From an uncultured Myxococcales bacterium (GTDB lineage: Bacteria; Myxococcota_A; UBA9042): 64,000 bases of DNA. Of the stretch, positions 19,350 to 27,494 are shown in pieces (the stretch's first letter is position 1; the number at the start of each line of letters is the position of its first letter). Made by a program: the position numbers and the translations under genes. The notes beneath the pieces were generated by a model. The model searched no databases and was not told where the DNA came from. It saw only the letters and a list, made by a program, of their open reading frames with translations. The stretch spans positions 1 through 64,000 of the forward strand of contig CAIMLR010000047.1 in the NCBI GenBank assembly GCA_903842345.1. The letters run 5' to 3'.

Positions 19350-21176
19350 CTACGTCGGCCACTGCAGGCCCGCCAAATCGCTGATGGAAGGGCCGAATGC
19401 TGCCTCCAACGCCCGTCGCAGCCCCGGGGAAGAGGGCGCGAACGGCCCGAGGCTCCGGCCGGCGTGCAGCACGACGATCGCGTCGGCATGGCGCGTCGCC
19501 AGCCGCAAGTCGTGCACCGCGGCGATGACCAGCCGGTGCTGGGCGTGCGCGACGTCCGCCAGCATCGCCAACATCTGCTCGGCCTGCGGCAGGTCCAGGG
19601 ACGCGGACGGCTCGTCCAGCAGCACCACCTCCGCTTCCCGGGCCAGCACCATCGCGACGAATGCGCGCTGCAGTTGTCCACCGGACAGCGCGGCGCACGG
19701 CTCCTGCGCGCGGTCGGCGAGCTGACACTGCACAAGCGCCCGCTGCACCGCCAACAGGTCGTCCGGCGGCAGATCCGCGCGCCATGGCTGCTGGCTGAGG
19801 AACGCGGTGCGACCCAGCGCGACCAGCGCCTGCACCGTCAGCCCGGGCTCCGCACGCGGATCCTGAGGCAGGAACGCGACGTGGTCCGGGGCGCGCGTCA
19901 TCTGCGTGCGCACGTGCCCGTGGTCGAGCACCAGCCCGGACGTCGCCGGCGCCACCCCTGCGAGTACCCGCAGCAGCGTCGACTTGCCCGCGCCGTTGGC
20001 GCCCACCAGCAGCAGCAACTGCCCGCCGTGCAGGTCGAGATTCACCTGTCGCAGCGTCGGCGTCGCCTGCCCGGGATGCTGCAGCAACAAGTCGCGCGTC
20101 GCCAGAACGCCGTCCGTTGTCGCACCCCGCGGCGTCGGTGTGGACCGCAGCACCGCCGTGCGCCGATGCAGGCCCAGCAGCACCACCAGAACTGGCGCGC
20201 CGGCCAAGGCAGTCAGGATGCCCACCGGCAACTCCGCGGGCGCCACGAGCACGCGGGCGAGCGCATCGCACAACATCAGGAACGCCGCGCCAAACAGCGC
20301 CGCGCCCGGCAGCAGCGCACGGTGGTCGCGGCCCAACCAACCGCGGAGCGCGTGCGGCACCAGCAGGCCGACAAAACCGATGATGCCGCCGAGCGAAACC
20401 GCAATCGCCGCCAGCGCGCTGGACCACCACAGCGCGTGCTTTGCCAGCGTCGCCTCGTCCACGCCCAAGCCGCGCGCTGCATCGCTCCCCAGACCCAGCG
20501 CATTGAGTCCAGCTGCCGCGCGCAGGGACCAAAGCAGCGCGGCGACAAGGAGCAGCGTCATCGGCACGGCGAGCCGCCAATCGGGCAGGGACACGCCGCC
20601 CATGAGCCACAAAGTCGCGGCGCGCAGGCGCATGTCGCTGAACTGGTAGAGAATGAAGGATGTGGCGGCGCCGGCAAATGCCGTCAGAACCAGCCCAGCG
20701 AGCAGCACACGCTCCGGCCGCAGCGGCCCGCCGGCCCGGGCGATTGCGAAAGCCAGCGACACCGCCGCCAGCGCCCCGCCGAACGCCGCAAGCGGCTGCA
20801 GCCAAGGCAGCACCTGCTCAAACGGCAGCGCGAGCAGCCCGGACAGCCACGCCGCCAAGGGCGCAGCGAGCACGGCTGCCGTCGTTGCGCCCGCGCTCGT
20901 GCCGACAAGGTAGGGATCGGCGACGGGATTGCGCGTCGCCGCCTGCAGCAGCACGCCCGACAGCGACAGGGACGCGCCGACGAGGAGCGCGGCAAACGCC
21001 CGTGGCAGCCGGACATCGCGCAGGATCGCCAGCGCGACTGGATCGCCTTCGCGGATTTGCTGCAGCAGGCGCCAAATCGGCATGTGGCCCGCGCCAAAGG
21101 ACAACGTCACCGCGCCCGCCGCCAAGAGCACGGCAAAACCGAGGAGCCACGCGCGGATTGGACTGGACCGGACCAA
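19350..21176 (-). CDS. btuCD: Fused cobalamin ABC transporter: BtuC permease plus BtuD ATPase
   Basis: 608 residues. Residues about 10-335 are a FecCD/BtuC-type permease with ILRDVRLPRAFAALLVG and later LGGIIGFVGLLVPH. Residues about 357-600 are an ABC ATPase: Walker A GANGAGKST (392-400), Q-loop LPQD, signature LSGGQ (497-501), Walker B VVLLDEP (517-523) and the switch His555. In most bacteria these are two proteins. The start is a TTG at 21176 with AGGGAG upstream, overlapping the end of btuF by spacing only (9 bp); no ATG is available before the first membrane helix. It imports corrinoid from the periplasm into the cytosol. B12 specificity is inferred from the riboswitch and btuB in the same operon; siderophore permeases are close relatives. 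Confidence 0.92.
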   Translation of the reverse strand: MVRSSPIRAWLLGFAVLLAAGAVTLSFGAGHMPIWRLLQQIREGDPVALAILRDVRLPRAFAALLVGASLSLSGVLLQAATRNPVADPYLVGTSAGATTAAVLAAPLAAWLSGLLALPFEQVLPWLQPLAAFGGALAAVSLAFAIARAGGPLRPERVLLAGLVLTAFAGAATSFILYQFSDMRLRAATLWLMGGVSLPDWRLAVPMTLLLVAALLWSLRAAAGLNALGLGSDAARGLGVDEATLAKHALWWSSALAAIAVSLGGIIGFVGLLVPHALRGWLGRDHRALLPGAALFGAAFLMLCDALARVLVAPAELPVGILTALAGAPVLVVLLGLHRRTAVLRSTPTPRGATTDGVLATRDLLLQHPGQATPTLRQVNLDLHGGQLLLLVGANGAGKSTLLRVLAGVAPATSGLVLDHGHVRTQMTRAPDHVAFLPQDPRAEPGLTVQALVALGRTAFLSQQPWRADLPPDDLLAVQRALVQCQLADRAQEPCAALSGGQLQRAFVAMVLAREAEVVLLDEPSASLDLPQAEQMLAMLADVAHAQHRLVIAAVHDLRLATRHADAIVVLHAGRSLGPFAPSSPGLRRALEAAFGPSISDLAGLQWPT

Positions 21177-21185
21177 ACGAACTCC

Positions 21186-22151
21186 CTACAGCGGCGCCAA
21201 GAGCGGCAGGTCCAGCAGCGCCAACGGGTGCAGCAGCCGGGCGATTTCCTCCACGCCCAAAGCCAGCCGGGGCCCCGGTCGCGCCACGAGATCCGCGTGC
21301 AAAGCAAAGACCTGACCCTCGCGAACGGCCCGCAGGAGCGCCATCGTCGGCCGCCGGCGCAGCGTCGCGAGGGATTGCGGTTGGTCCTGCACGTCCGCGT
21401 CGCCCAGCAGCACGACGTCCGGGTCGGCGGTCAACACGGCCTCCGGCGAGACCTGAAACCATTCGCGCGGCTCCGCGCCAAAGAGGTTCTGGCCGCCGGC
21501 GCGCGTCAGCACCTCGTGGCCAAAGGTCGCTTGGCCGATCGTGTAGGGCTGGCCGCCAATCCCCGCGTCCATTTCGTAGAACACCACAGGTGATGCACGT
21601 CCTTGCACACGGGTCTCAATCACCTTGATTCGATTCTCAAAAGCGCTCGCCAACGCCTCGCCATTTTGGCGTTTGCCGCAAGCCAGACCGACGGCGCGCA
21701 GCGTCTGCGCCACCTCGGCAATGTGCTTGGGCGCGAACGCCAGCCACGGCACATGCGCGCCATCCAGCGCGGCCGCGAGCGCGGGCGGCGGAAAGTTGCT
21801 GAGCACCAGGTCCGGGCGCATCGCGAGGATCGCTTCCGCGCTCGGCGCAAAACCCTGCACAGCCGGGATCGCGCGGGCCTGCGCCGGATAGTCGCTCCAC
21901 CCGTCGCGCAGCACGACCTGACCGCCACAGCCGACAGCAAACAGCGTCTCCGTCAGCGCGGGCGAGAGCGAGACAATGCGCCGCGCGGGCTGGGCGAGCG
22001 TGACGGAATGGCCGCGCTGATCGACGACGGTCGCCGGCCCGGTCGCTTCCACGGCCATCTGGGGCTGAGTTATCTTGTATTCAACGGGAGATGACGGCTC
22101 ATTTCTCGAGCAAGCCATCACCAAGGATAGTCCAAGCAGCTGCCATCGCAT
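21186..22151 (-). CDS. btuF: Periplasmic cobalamin-binding lipoprotein (BtuF-like)
   Basis: 321 residues. An N-terminal lipobox (VMAC, Cys14) suggests membrane tethering. The body is a class III periplasmic-binding protein: RIVSLSPALTETLFAVG opens lobe 1, AILAMRPDLVLSN follows, and a long helix connects to lobe 2 (PDVVLLGDADVQ). This is the standard BtuF/FecB fold that delivers B12 to the permease. The start codon overlaps the stop of the upstream propeller gene by one base, and the fused permease/ATPase begins 9 bp downstream, so all are translationally coupled. An Asp/Glu-lined cleft cannot be judged from sequence alone. Confidence 0.9.
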   Translation of the reverse strand: MRWQLLGLSLVMACSRNEPSSPVEYKITQPQMAVEATGPATVVDQRGHSVTLAQPARRIVSLSPALTETLFAVGCGGQVVLRDGWSDYPAQARAIPAVQGFAPSAEAILAMRPDLVLSNFPPPALAAALDGAHVPWLAFAPKHIAEVAQTLRAVGLACGKRQNGEALASAFENRIKVIETRVQGRASPVVFYEMDAGIGGQPYTIGQATFGHEVLTRAGGQNLFGAEPREWFQVSPEAVLTADPDVVLLGDADVQDQPQSLATLRRRPTMALLRAVREGQVFALHADLVARPGPRLALGVEEIARLLHPLALLDLPLLAPL

Positions 22152-23374
22152 CAGAAGACTCCAAAGTCGATGGCGCCGAGGCCGCCGGGATTGCTCGTCG
22201 TCGCGGGCTTTTCCACGGTGCCGGTGGCGGATAATTCAAAGACGCGCACGTCGCCTGCTGCGTTGGTGCGGTCGCCGACGAGGATGCGGTGGCTGGCGGC
22301 GATCGCGGTCATCCCGCTGACGGCAAACGGACCGCTGCCTTCGCCGATTTGCACGGGCGCGCCGCCGGTGAGTTCAAAGCGCCAGATGCGGTCGTGCGTG
22401 CCGCTGTCCGGTTCGCCGGGCGTGGCGACGAGGCAATGGCCGCCGGGCAGGCAGGCGACGTCCCGGCCGAGCGTTGTCGCGCCGCCGAAGTCCTTCGCGG
22501 CAAAGGCGAGCGTTGTGGTCGACGTCACGTCTCCCGGCGCGAGCACGACGATCCCTGCATGGTCGCCCTGAGCGGCTCTGTCGACATACGCGCCGGGGCA
22601 AACCGCCACCAGCCGCTGCAGATCCGGGAGCCACGCCATCTCAATGCAGTTCTTGACGCTTGGCGCGTCAACAATTTGAATGACCGTATCTTTCTTTGTT
22701 TCGATCGCCAGAAAACGCGTCGCCCCCTGATGGCTGAAATCCGCCGCCAACGACTGCAGCGGAATCCACACACGGTCGGCGATCCGCACCGCGCGGCTTC
22801 CCGCGGCGACGTAGCCGGGCAGCGTCGCCCAGGGGGAGAGGTCAATGCGCCCGAGCAGCTTCCCGTCGCTCGGGTCCACGATGAGCACGTCGTCGCCCTC
22901 ATCAAAGTCTCCCGGATCCGCCGTCGGCTGCACGTTGCGCTTCATCCGCACGACGTACATTTTGTGCGCGTCGATCGGCACCGCGTCCTGCGGATTGCTG
23001 TAGAAGCCTGTGCTCACGGGGATCTGCTGGATCGCGCGCGTCAGTGGGTCCCAGAAGCTGACGACGGCCGACCCGCGGTCGATCACGATGATTCGGCCGT
23101 CGCTCATCGCCGTTTGGCCGAGCGCGACGTCGCCGGAAAGCGCCGTTGTCGCGGCGGAAACGAGCGATCCGGAATGCCAAAGCGCGGCGCCGACGCGTTG
23201 TTGCGAATCGGCGGCGAGGAGGGACAACGCGGAGCTCTTGTAGTCGGAACCGAGCACGGCGAGGCGATCGCCGACGGCCGGAACGGCAGCTTCATACGTA
23301 CCGTCGCCACCGGCCGACCGCGTGTCATCGGCACATGCAGCCGCCCAGAGACACGCGAGGAGAGCCCATCTCAT
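22151..23374 (-). CDS. Beta-propeller lipoprotein in the B12 operon, candidate BtuG analogue
   Basis: 407 residues. The signal peptide ends at Cys14 (AAAC, a weak lipobox). The mature chain shows repeated four-strand-like segments of about 45-55 residues: RLAVLGSDYKSSALSLL, RIIVIDRGSAVVSFWDP, KMYVVRMKRN, DVLIVDPSDGKLLGRIDL, RLVAVCPGAYVD, RIWRFELTGG, DVRVFELSATG. This is a seven-bladed propeller style (YVTN/WD-like) with phrases such as NPQDAVPIDAHKMYVV. The start overlaps the btuB stop (ATGA) and its stop overlaps the btuF start. Bacteroidota BtuG is a surface propeller lipoprotein that binds B12 beside BtuB; position, anchor and fold type here match, but direct homology is not established. 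Confidence 0.8.
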   Translation of the reverse strand: MRWALLACLWAAACADDTRSAGGDGTYEAAVPAVGDRLAVLGSDYKSSALSLLAADSQQRVGAALWHSGSLVSAATTALSGDVALGQTAMSDGRIIVIDRGSAVVSFWDPLTRAIQQIPVSTGFYSNPQDAVPIDAHKMYVVRMKRNVQPTADPGDFDEGDDVLIVDPSDGKLLGRIDLSPWATLPGYVAAGSRAVRIADRVWIPLQSLAADFSHQGATRFLAIETKKDTVIQIVDAPSVKNCIEMAWLPDLQRLVAVCPGAYVDRAAQGDHAGIVVLAPGDVTSTTTLAFAAKDFGGATTLGRDVACLPGGHCLVATPGEPDSGTHDRIWRFELTGGAPVQIGEGSGPFAVSGMTAIAASHRILVGDRTNAAGDVRVFELSATGTVEKPATTSNPGGLGAIDFGVF

Positions 23375-25479
23375 GGCGCGACCTCGGCGATATCGTGAGT
23401 CTGCGGTTGGGTCTCAACCGGCTGCGGCGTTTCGTCGTCTCGCCACATGTGCCAGCCCAGTTGCAGCCAAACCGTGCGCCCCGGCAGCGGATAGCCCACG
23501 AGGTCCACGACCGGCGCATTGAGCGCGTTGTCGACGCGCAGCTCCAGGAAGACCTGCCACGGCTTGTGCTCCACCCGCAGCCCGCCGCCCACCAATGTGT
23601 GCGCCGGCACCGCCACGAGGTTCGCCGCATCGAGGAAGTGCCCAGCTTGCCACTGCCCCGTCACAAACGGCCGCCACGCGAGCACGCCCGCGCGCTTGAG
23701 CCAGTCCGCCCGCAGGGACCAGCGCGTCCGCGGCCGCATTGGCAGCGCTTTGCCGTCATAGGCGGGCCGCCCTGACGTGTCCTCGGCAACAAGCGTCGTG
23801 TGCTGGCCGACCAGCCGCAATTGCTTGAACAGCCGCGTGGACGCCTGCACCTCGACGCCAAACAGCCGCGCGCTGGCGATGTTGTCAAACCGCGCCTGGT
23901 GGGCGTTGACGGACGAGAGCTGGATGAGGTCGTCGACCTGCTTGTAGAACCCGCTCGCGTCCACCGCGACGGTCCACTGGTCCGCCTCGTAGCGCGCGCC
24001 GGCGCCCACGTCCCACGTCATCGCCGTTTCAGGCAGCAGCGTCGCGTTGCCACGGATTACGCCGTCGTTGCCATAGAGCTCCATCAGCGTCGGCGCCCGC
24101 GTGCCCCGGGTCCACGCCACGCGCGGCGCCAGCCACGGCAGCACCTGCCACGCCGCCGCCAATCGCGTCGTCCACAGCGCGTTTTCCGCGACCGTGACTT
24201 CGCGCGTCGTGAACGGATAGCTCTCGTCCGTCGTGCGCCGGCTGTGCTGCGCTTCCACGCTCACGGACGGCACAATCTGGATGCCCGACTCCTGCCAGTG
24301 CAGCGGCAAGCCCAGACCGGCCTGCAGCGATTGTCGGGAGGACGTCGGTTGGTCCGTGCCCGTCAGCCCGTCGTGCGTCGCCACGTCGCCCGCCATTGCC
24401 GACAGCCGCGTCACCGCGCTCAGCACGCCGGCGATGGGCGTCTGCCACACCGTTTGCAGTCCCATCGTGCGCACAGCCTGCGTCGTCTGCCACGGCATGC
24501 CCAATTCGCCGTGCGGGTCATTCACGCCCGTGCCCAGCCAATTGCCCTGGAGGGACACGCGCACACGGTCGTCCTGCCGCCAGATGTTTTGCCCCAGCAG
24601 CGACACCGCCGCCAACTGGCGATCGCGCGTGAGGTTCGCCGTCGTCGATTCGAACAGCGCTGGACCGGGAATGCCTTGTTTCAGCCCGGCGCCAAACCAG
24701 CGGCCCTGCAGCGACCAGCGCTTGTTGATTTGCCACTGCGCGCCCAGCGTGCCGCCGAGGCGGTCCAGCGCGTTGTTCTGGCGGATGCGCGTCGCGTCGT
24801 CGCTGGTGTTGTAGAGCGTGCCGTTGTCAAAACGAAACGGGAAATCGCCGTCGGCGTGCACCCAGCGGATGCCGCCGGAGATGCGCAGCGCATCCGAGTG
24901 CCACGCCACCGCCGCTTCCGTTTGCCGCGCGCCGTAGCTGCCTGTTCCGCCATTCACTTCGCCGCCCACGCCGTTGGGCTGGCGCAACGTGAGGCGCAGC
25001 GTGCCGCCGACCGATTGGCTGCCCAACGCCGACGGCGTCATCCCGCGGTAGATTTCCAGCCTCTCAATTTGTCCCGACGGCAAGTCGGCAAGGTCCAGCG
25101 GCGAGCCGTCCAAGGACAGCACCGGCACGTCGTCGATGTACACGTCAACCTGCTCGGACGAACAGCCGCGGATGCTGAGCAGTGCCGGCGCGCCAAAGCC
25201 GCTCAATTGCTGCACGCGCAGGCCGGCCTGGGCATCCAGCGCTTCAGGTATGGACAGGTGGTGGTCGCGCAAGTCCTCCCCGGTCAGGACGTTGGCCGCC
25301 GCAGTCGGGTCCAGTTCCGCCGCGGGCAGGTCCGGCTTGCGGCCATGGACGCGCGAGGCAGGCAGGCGCCAAGTGGGCAGGGTGCTCGGCGTGGCTTGGT
25401 CCGGCAAATCCGCAGCAAGCGCCGCATGCGACGCGCAAGCGAACAGGCAAAGCAGCAAGGGACGGACGCGCAGCGACAT
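23371..25479 (-). CDS. btuB: TonB-dependent outer-membrane receptor, BtuB-type
   Basis: 702 residues from the ATG at 25479; GAGGG lies in front. A signal peptide (LLLCLFACASHAALA) precedes a plug domain with EALDAQAGLRVQQLSG, LLSIRGCSSEQVDVYIDDVP and IERLEIYRGMTPS, and then a 22-strand barrel-like region (VAWTRGTRAPTLMELYG is the typical TonB-receptor segment). The last barrel strand (RTVWLQLGWHMW) is followed by about 20 polar residues, whereas most receptors end on an aromatic residue. Specificity for cobalamin is inferred from the riboswitch directly upstream and the BtuF/BtuCD genes downstream. The stop overlaps the next start (ATGA). Confidence 0.9.
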   Translation of the reverse strand: MSLRVRPLLLCLFACASHAALAADLPDQATPSTLPTWRLPASRVHGRKPDLPAAELDPTAAANVLTGEDLRDHHLSIPEALDAQAGLRVQQLSGFGAPALLSIRGCSSEQVDVYIDDVPVLSLDGSPLDLADLPSGQIERLEIYRGMTPSALGSQSVGGTLRLTLRQPNGVGGEVNGGTGSYGARQTEAAVAWHSDALRISGGIRWVHADGDFPFRFDNGTLYNTSDDATRIRQNNALDRLGGTLGAQWQINKRWSLQGRWFGAGLKQGIPGPALFESTTANLTRDRQLAAVSLLGQNIWRQDDRVRVSLQGNWLGTGVNDPHGELGMPWQTTQAVRTMGLQTVWQTPIAGVLSAVTRLSAMAGDVATHDGLTGTDQPTSSRQSLQAGLGLPLHWQESGIQIVPSVSVEAQHSRRTTDESYPFTTREVTVAENALWTTRLAAAWQVLPWLAPRVAWTRGTRAPTLMELYGNDGVIRGNATLLPETAMTWDVGAGARYEADQWTVAVDASGFYKQVDDLIQLSSVNAHQARFDNIASARLFGVEVQASTRLFKQLRLVGQHTTLVAEDTSGRPAYDGKALPMRPRTRWSLRADWLKRAGVLAWRPFVTGQWQAGHFLDAANLVAVPAHTLVGGGLRVEHKPWQVFLELRVDNALNAPVVDLVGYPLPGRTVWLQLGWHMWRDDETPQPVETQPQTHDIAEVAP

Positions 25480-25542: not shown

Positions 25543-25737
25543 CTTGCGCGCGACCGGTCTCCTGACTCGCAGCGTGGGTCCAACCGCCTTCCCGTCGCCC
25601 ATTTTCATGGAGCTGCCCAGTTTGACCCGGGCCGACAGTGGCTTTGTGGTTGGCCGATGTGCTGCCTACAGTGGCGGGTCCGTGCCGGCTTGGGTCTTGG
25701 CGACCTTTCCCGGCTTCCCTCGTGATGTCAGGAAGAT
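25543..25737 (-). promoter_or_regulatory. Cobalamin riboswitch upstream of btuB
   Basis: On the minus strand the leader contains, in 5' to 3' order, GAGGGAAGCCGGG (near 25725), CGGACCCGCCACTGT (25668-25682), a second GCCACTGT (25635-25642), GGGAAGGCGGTTGG (about 25583-25596) and the B12 box AGTCAGGAGACCGG (25554-25567). Order and spacing match the AdoCbl riboswitch core. Downstream, CCGAGT/ACTCGG forms a 6-bp hairpin (25518-25533) before the ribosome-binding region of btuB, so translational or transcriptional control is expected, with repression when cobalamin is abundant. Exact ends are approximate. The rest of the gap (25738-25846) shows no gene. Confidence 0.95.
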
Positions 25738-25846: not shown

Positions 25847-27328
25847 CTACTGGCAGAGCGGATCGCCGCCAGAGCAAGCCTGCAGCGCGATCGGTGAATT
25901 CACCTTGGTCAGCTTGCCGTCGGACAGCCCGGTCACGTCCATCTTGGCGGCGTAGCTGATTGTGTTGTTGACGATGCCGTGCGCCTGGATCGTCAACTTG
26001 CTGATCCCATGGGCGTTGCAGATGACGAGGCCGGTCGCGCCGGGCGGCACGGCGCAGGCGGCCGGGGAGTTGTCGAGGTCGATCACGCGCTGCTTGTAGT
26101 TCATGCCCGTGAGGTCGCAAGGCTTGGTCGCGTCGGCATCGTTGAACGGCACGATGAGCTTGTCATTGCCGATGATTTGATACTGGACGTTGCCGACGCC
26201 ATGGCTGCCGCAGGAACCGCCGTCGGCGAATGCCAGCGGGATCGCGATGAGCGTGCGCTGGCCGATGTCGATCGGCGTGGTGACGTTGCTGGTCTGGTTC
26301 GCGAGGATGGCGAACGGCCCGCCGAGGTTGACGTTGCCATACGCGGACGTGTCCGGCGGATTGGCTTCGTCGATGCGCAGGTAGACGTTGCCGGCTGGGA
26401 GGTTGCTGAAGGAAATCTGCCCGGAGCCGCAGCTCACCTGCGCAGATCCGAGTTCCGTGGTCCGGTCGGCGGCGAGCACGGTCACGTTCAGCTTGTCGAT
26501 GGAGTAGGTCGTGCATCCGGACGCCGCGGCTTTGCCGAAGACGGTCCAGCCGAGCGAGAGCCCGCCCACCGTGGTCGTCGCGCCGAGCTTGGTGATGTCG
26601 AGCGGCGTGTTGAACGTCAGGTCCGTGTTGGCGCCAAGTGAGAGCGGGCCTTTCAGGCCGGGCGTGCCCCACGACGGTTGGCCGGACGCATCGCCGGCGG
26701 TGTAGCCGTCCAACTGCACGTAGTAAGTGCCGGAGCCGAGGTTGCCGACCGTCGCGTACCCGCTGGCGCAGTTGGCCTGCGCGGTTGCCAGCACCTTGGT
26801 CTGGCTGGCGTCGATGATGCTCAGCACCACGGTCTTGACGCCGTTTGCGCCGCAGCCGCTGATGGCCGATTGGCCGGCGATTGTCCAGGTTGCCTGGATG
26901 CTGCTCAGGCCGTTGTTGACCGGCGTCGTCGGGTCGAGCTCAAGGATGGCGGTCGAGACCGTCGAATAGGCGAGGGCGGGGACGCTGACGGTCGGGCTCA
27001 CGGCGATGACGGTGCCGTCGTACGCGATGCCTTCCACGTGGACCGCGTAGGAGCCCTCGACGACCTCGATGGTCATCGCGCCCGCGGCGCAGGCGCCTTT
27101 GCTGAATGTGCCGTAGGGCATGCCGTTGTGGGCGACCACGACGTTGACGCTCGCGATGCCCATGGAGTTGCACGAGGTGCCCGGCGGCGTGTCCCAGTAC
27201 ACGAGGATGCTGCCGCGCGACGAGCCGTTGTCGACGATGCACCCTTGCAGCGGCAGGGCAACGGCGAGCAGGGCCAGCGCAACGGCGCGCAAACGACCCT
27301 GAAGCAAATCAATGACGGTATTCCACAT
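25847..27328 (-). CDS. Lipoprotein built from four related beta-sandwich-like domains
   Basis: 493 residues from the ATG at 27328, with GGAGGA upstream. The lipobox is LQGC (Cys30). After SSRGS, four units of about 100-120 residues repeat: each opens with a strand motif ending in W or F (ILVYWDTPPGTSC, IQATWTIAGQSAISGC, LSLGWTVFGKAAASGC, PLAFADGGSC), contains a second Cys about 40 residues later (ACAAGAMTIEVVEG, NCASGYATVGNL, SCGSGQISFSNL), then a strand such as GTYYVQLDGY or GNVYLRIDEA. The paired Cys probably form a disulfide per domain. I do not recognise the family; the pattern resembles carboxypeptidase-regulatory/Ig-like surface modules. Divergent from the NlpC-like lipoprotein gene. 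Confidence 0.78.
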   Translation of the reverse strand: MWNTVIDLLQGRLRAVALALLAVALPLQGCIVDNGSSRGSILVYWDTPPGTSCNSMGIASVNVVVAHNGMPYGTFSKGACAAGAMTIEVVEGSYAVHVEGIAYDGTVIAVSPTVSVPALAYSTVSTAILELDPTTPVNNGLSSIQATWTIAGQSAISGCGANGVKTVVLSIIDASQTKVLATAQANCASGYATVGNLGSGTYYVQLDGYTAGDASGQPSWGTPGLKGPLSLGANTDLTFNTPLDITKLGATTTVGGLSLGWTVFGKAAASGCTTYSIDKLNVTVLAADRTTELGSAQVSCGSGQISFSNLPAGNVYLRIDEANPPDTSAYGNVNLGGPFAILANQTSNVTTPIDIGQRTLIAIPLAFADGGSCGSHGVGNVQYQIIGNDKLIVPFNDADATKPCDLTGMNYKQRVIDLDNSPAACAVPPGATGLVICNAHGISKLTIQAHGIVNNTISYAAKMDVTGLSDGKLTKVNSPIALQACSGGDPLCQ

Positions 27329-27494
27329 GTTCCATCCTCCGCAGTTCAACTCGCACTTCCTGACTCGTTAACGCGTCGCGGCGCAGTGTATTCAATGCGC
27401 CGCCCAGCGCCAGCCAGTATAGGACGAACTTGACGAAAAAACTGACGGCCGCATTCTGTTGCGGTCGAGGCCGTCTCGACGTGGGAATGCTGAC

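Follow-up and report, generated by a model that had tools for sequence, protein, structure and literature searches.

A family of BtuG-like propeller lipoproteins encoded beside btuB in Myxococcota is a candidate vitamin B12 lid

The minus strand of the 64-kb window, by which we mean the whole stretch of DNA analysed, carries a B12 uptake operon in which a gene for a propeller lipoprotein lies between btuB and btuF. Its features are the following.

25556..25719, minus strand: cobalamin riboswitch (RF00174) at the operon head; Rfam score 55.7 bits, gathering score 31.5
23371..25479, minus strand: btuB, TonB-dependent B12 receptor with Plug and barrel domains
22151..23374, minus strand: gene for the BtuG-like seven-bladed propeller lipoprotein, 407 aa, ATG start
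23333..23335, minus strand: codon of the predicted lipid-anchor Cys14 (WAAAC-ADDT), from the sequence; at least 90% of members have Cys here
22646..22648, minus strand: codon of invariant Cys243, loop between blades 4 and 5; 36 of 36 members
22598..22600, minus strand: codon of invariant Cys259, end of strand B of blade 5; 36 of 36 members
21186..22151, minus strand: btuF, periplasmic corrinoid-binding (lipo)protein; Peripla_BP_2, E 6.6e-27
19350..21176, minus strand: btuC-btuD fusion (permease and ATPase); FecCD at 17-334 and ABC_tran at 375-524 of a 608-aa ORF

The riboswitch is the sole Rfam match across the window; it scores above the gathering threshold and lies upstream on the operon strand. 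The btuB stop codon (23371-23373) and the propeller start at 23374 overlap as ATGA, and the propeller gene shares one base (TGATG) with btuF at 22151. Open reading frame, sequence and Rfam thus confirm the first-pass annotation of an intact 407-codon lipoprotein gene joined by these overlaps to btuB and btuF below a cobalamin riboswitch. Because the listed btuB start, 25608, falls within the riboswitch, we moved it to 25479, which is probably the true start and gives the receptor the signal peptide MSLRVRPLLLCLFACASHA. The btuF product matches the BtuF model NF002894 with E 1.8e-24, under the cut-off of that model. The btuC-btuD fusion recurs among the closer relatives of the family, and three loci (L047, L082, L107) have the two as separate genes. 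Just upstream of the riboswitch, a gene for a lipoprotein of about 500 aa (window 25847-27349, minus strand) shows weak prealbumin- and SpaA-like matches and holds the same position in many relatives.

Pfam and NCBIfam scans of the 407-aa propeller protein returned zero family matches. Homologues of similar length, 76 to 21% identical, are nevertheless encoded in 35 other loci, and 22151-23374 is therefore not a chance ORF; a homologue is encoded by 36 among 138 relatives. A profile of 36 members found strong matches (E < 1e-65) in 58 of 284 sampled Myxococcota genomes, by our own tally from the profile-search table, and the next-best group dropped to 1e-21 and weaker. This gap marks a clear family edge, and as judged by sequence the propeller proteins form a discrete family. 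Carriers named in a genome-collection scan include uncultured Myxococcales, Polyangiaceae, Sorangium cellulosum and Corallococcus llansteffanensis, relatives that support the Myxococcota-like host suggested at first reading; as the scan relied on a narrow alignment and a single peptide pattern, the family may also occur in other phyla. A tblastn search of plasmids with the window protein gave no match. One record titled as a Klebsiella pneumoniae MAG (L070) carries a family gene and is apparently a misnamed Myxococcota record.

A strict lipobox pattern matches 30 of 35 members, so the protein bears a lipoprotein signal and its lipidation is predicted. Cys243 and Cys259, present in every member, likely form a disulfide pair. 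One genome holds a divergent second copy (L066:3781-5325, minus strand) in which several conserved residues are gone and which has no btuB; it is possibly a paralogue with another ligand.

The neighbourhood of the gene is conserved. After removal of duplicates we retained 64 non-redundant family genes, 60 of them with usable upstream sequence. In 48 of the 60, by the distance rule of our script, the gene immediately upstream in the same orientation encodes a BtuB-type receptor; this count should be read as at least 48, since the rule missed L095 and L111, where the ORFs overlap. Among the 48 is Sorangium cellulosum L094, in which just a 50-bit BtuB remnant (L094:5232-5792) precedes the btuG-like gene and may reflect decay of the receptor gene. 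Of 49 loci scanned for a cobalamin riboswitch, 35 have one upstream in the same orientation; since genomes of this group have a base rate of one or two such riboswitches each, the linkage goes beyond chance. The riboswitch upstream of btuB is likewise conserved in relatives. By both counts, then, the gene adjoins btuB in a cobalamin-riboswitch locus, and the survey of btuB-btuF neighbourhoods proposed in the first-pass annotation did not end in the lack of conservation that would have spoken against a BtuG-like protein.

Several copies stand apart from the receptor. Three orphans without btuB (L054, L061, L062) lie about 100-140 bp below a cobalamin riboswitch of their own, and the first of these adjoins divergent genes for a B12-dependent methylmalonyl-CoA mutase and MeaB. 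At least four further orphan copies (L057, L060, L093 and L101, the last outside the riboswitch scan) have no BtuB nearby, which counts against a lid for that receptor. At another locus (L109:1362-8333), btuB and the btuG-like gene are followed by exbB, exbD and tonB, making a B12 uptake cluster that includes the system to energise it.

An AlphaFold2 model computed from the family alignment (pLDDT 91.2, pTM 0.89) has 28 strands in seven blades, and the propeller-blade strands first noticed in the sequence are thus real. Blade 1 is completed by the C-terminal strand, as it is in BtuG2 by our reading of its sequence. When the model was compared with the whole PDB using Foldseek, ranks 1-14 were all BtuG1, BtuG2, BtuG3 or their homologues, mostly B12-bound (E 1e-11 to 4e-10), and XusB came next. 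VIA-align likewise placed BtuG at all of ranks 1-8 (Z 29-31, top 31.4; 310-324 residues, rmsd 3.2-3.6); the YVTN propeller 1l0q reached Z 29.0 against that 31.4, and on the model the fold margin of BtuG over generic propellers is real but modest. Model, Foldseek and VIA-align agree on a seven-bladed propeller with the BtuG strand order. Comparison with BtuG and YVTN propellers, the check suggested at the outset, therefore put BtuG first and gave no confident match to an unrelated propeller.

BtuG2 binds the corrin side chains through 13 hydrogen bonds contributed by blades 1 to 4, and the residues named as surrounding the ligand are Trp194, Tyr239, Trp272, Tyr316 and Tyr335 (PMC10404256). In our own strand assignment each of these five falls in a B-C or D-A loop. 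Across the Myxococcota family, the loops of this BtuG-ligand face have 27 of their 128 positions above 2.5 bits, as against 0 of 63 for the loops of the other face (rank difference between the two faces, p 1.3e-4). Conservation is highest in loops of blades 1 to 4 (D44/Y45, D82, R100, F124/N127 and the C243 loop). At the loops corresponding to those of BtuG2 Trp194, Tyr239 and Tyr316, the family has F213, Y263 and F350, with an aromatic residue at these positions in 97, 83 and 97% of the members, respectively; the correspondence is one of loops, not of superposed residues. A crude count of loop charges did not reproduce the charged face of BtuG, and as BtuG2 itself fails the count it is uninformative. 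From conservation and the parallel with BtuG we infer a B12 site on the face of the B-C and D-A loops, mostly in blades 1-4.

Relation to BtuG is invisible to ordinary sequence search, since neither phmmer nor a profile search of PDB sequences with the propeller protein found a BtuG match. DUF5074, which matches BtuG2 (73.6 bits) and the BtuG of Persicobacter, matched 0 of 36 Myxococcota members at E 0.01, and a DUF5074 search in Myxococcota yielded just weak matches to unrelated propellers. DUF4374, the XusB family, had no match at E 0.01 in 36 of 36 members, and XusB-type membership was rejected on this ground. A search of viral contigs for Bacteroides btuG found none. When profiles of mature sequences were compared, six Bacteroidota BtuG sequences (two from PDB entries 8bmx and 8p97, the further members from plasmid records) aligned co-linearly with the family over 278 columns (E 7e-8, probability 94.5); among four control propeller sets, none did better than 1.5e-4. 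BtuG3 or DUF5074 alone showed little similarity in such comparisons. The profile similarity suggests that the Myxococcota propeller is likely a remote homologue of BtuG; alternatively, a propeller may have been recruited independently.

Propellers are common, single members of the family touch PQQ_2 or Lactonase weakly, and a YVTN control was on a par with BtuG2 alone in profile comparison when signal peptides were left on. These observations would fit a generic propeller of YVTN, lactonase or PQQ type that has some structural or enzymatic role and sits in the operon by chance. We regard this explanation as highly improbable, given that linkage extends across tens of genera and includes orphan copies under their own riboswitch, that BtuG outscores the YVTN and lactonase controls once signal peptides are removed, and that invariant residues occupy the ligand face.

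A profile of the partner receptor found E. coli BtuB as the best match among PDB sequences (E 8.5e-51), followed by BtuB1, BtuB3 and others, and the protein matches TIGR01779 with E 1.3e-31, under the equivalog cut-off. For the receptor model (pLDDT 88.2), VIA-align ranked BtuB1 of the BtuB1G1 complex first (Z 38.6) and BtuB2 second, both above E. coli BtuB; the BtuB1 and BtuB2 structures were both solved with BtuG. By sequence and fold, the btuB product is a TonB-dependent B12 receptor. The best Foldseek match of the receptor model was XusA (E 7e-36), and together with the place of XusB behind BtuG in the propeller search this could point to a XusAB-like system, or one for a related tetrapyrrole or precursor, in which the propeller captures a siderophore, heme or cobinamide for the receptor. 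Such a system seems very unlikely, however, with the cobalamin riboswitch at 35 of 49 loci, BtuB as the best profile match of the receptor and XusA only at rank 22 in VIA-align. Cobinamide as an extra ligand is compatible with a B12 lid.

The protein had initially been proposed as a BtuG analogue or ortholog. Fold, BtuB partner and conserved linkage to btuB and the riboswitch are three largely independent lines that support the former; with no DUF5074 match and a profile similarity that is weak, though better than to control propellers, the latter is not supported as proposed.

The host genome (95.7% complete) encodes a full-length B12-dependent methionine synthase, MetH. Neither MetE nor CobB/CbiA was detected in it, and it has no CbiF match above cut-off, where a weaker tetrapyrrole-methylase match exists. 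With MetH present and both MetE and CobB/CbiA undetected, the host probably must import B12 and would thus need a capture system. A second, weaker cobalamin riboswitch occurs elsewhere in this genome (G000:C26:1790-1922, minus strand, 34.8 bits).

Taken together, the data make it probable that the propeller is an outer-membrane lipoprotein serving as a B12-capturing lid for BtuB, BtuG-like in function and belonging to a separate sequence family. The ON/OFF logic of cobalamin riboswitches is well established; upon B12 shortage, the riboswitch would let btuB, the propeller gene, btuF and btuCD be expressed together. The propeller, lipidated at Cys14, would then form a lid on the outer side of BtuB, capture B12 and probably other cobamides too, and pass the ligand to BtuB in the manner of Bacteroides BtuG. 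By analogy with Bacteroides BtuBG (PMC10404256), the loops of BtuB would loosen B12, TonB would open the receptor, and BtuF and BtuCD would complete import. In this scheme B12 binding, the complex with BtuB and lipidation of the propeller are predictions, as is the surface location, which is the weakest step.

The protein could instead face the periplasm, binding B12 there and passing it from BtuB to BtuF. Lipoproteins of most Gram-negative bacteria are periplasm-facing by default, and the position of the gene between btuB and btuF would suit such a shuttle. So would the absence of the Bacteroidota-type signal for lipoprotein surface export after the anchor Cys, where the residues read CADDT. 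We nonetheless consider this arrangement unlikely: the propeller gene stays by btuB in the many loci that keep the BtuB-BtuG pair alone, with btuF not adjoining; the closest folds are surface lids; and the BtuB model most resembles the lid-bearing BtuB1 and BtuB2.

That Myxococcota evolved a B12-capturing propeller lid of their own, or split one off very anciently, as a family apart from DUF5074, is a possibility to which we give somewhat less than even weight. Our results suggest that B12 capture by a surface lid extends beyond Bacteroidota. If so, such capture would be a wider strategy of soil and lake bacteria, found in about a fifth of the sampled Myxococcota genomes, and Bacteroidota would not be alone in capping TonB receptors with surface propeller lipoproteins. 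Myxococcota would then need some route, yet to be discovered, for bringing lipoproteins to the cell surface, and an unnamed protein family would gain a testable function. Corallococcus llansteffanensis (L085), a culturable carrier of the family gene, is a candidate organism for such a test.

Among known systems, the closest parallel is BtuG (BtuG1, BtuG2 and BtuG3 of Bacteroides thetaiotaomicron; DUF5074; PMC6143338, PMC10404256). Both are lipoproteins with a seven-bladed propeller whose C-terminal strand serves as strand A of blade 1, both are encoded next to btuB, in an operon that has a cobalamin riboswitch, btuF and btuCD, and both have conserved ligand-face loops, most strongly so in blades 1-4. 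In contrast to BtuG, with which it shares about 14% identity, the Myxococcota protein is not a DUF5074 member, is longer (407 as against about 350 aa), contains the invariant Cys pair and lacks the Bacteroidota export signal. The description of BtuG as confined to Bacteroidetes came from 313 human gut genomes only (PMC6143338), and in the literature searched we found neither BtuG nor a protein like it reported from Myxococcota. The propellers of YVTN/YncE and lactonase type share the seven-bladed fold but rank lower in fold comparison, have weaker profile scores and are without B12 linkage. XusB and XusA, which serve siderophore piracy in Bacteroides (PMC13142918), are likewise a pair of propeller lipoprotein and TonB-dependent receptor; XusB, however, is a DUF4374 protein that binds siderophores, whereas the present family has no DUF4374 match, and the operon of the window is under a cobalamin riboswitch. 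Finally, BtuH and BtuJ (DUF4465; PMC8941943, PMC13398666) are accessory B12-binding surface lipoproteins, as the propeller would be if its predicted location and ligand are correct, but their folds are different and not propellers. The DUF4465 B12-binding family has recently been reported in Myxococcota too (PMC13398666).
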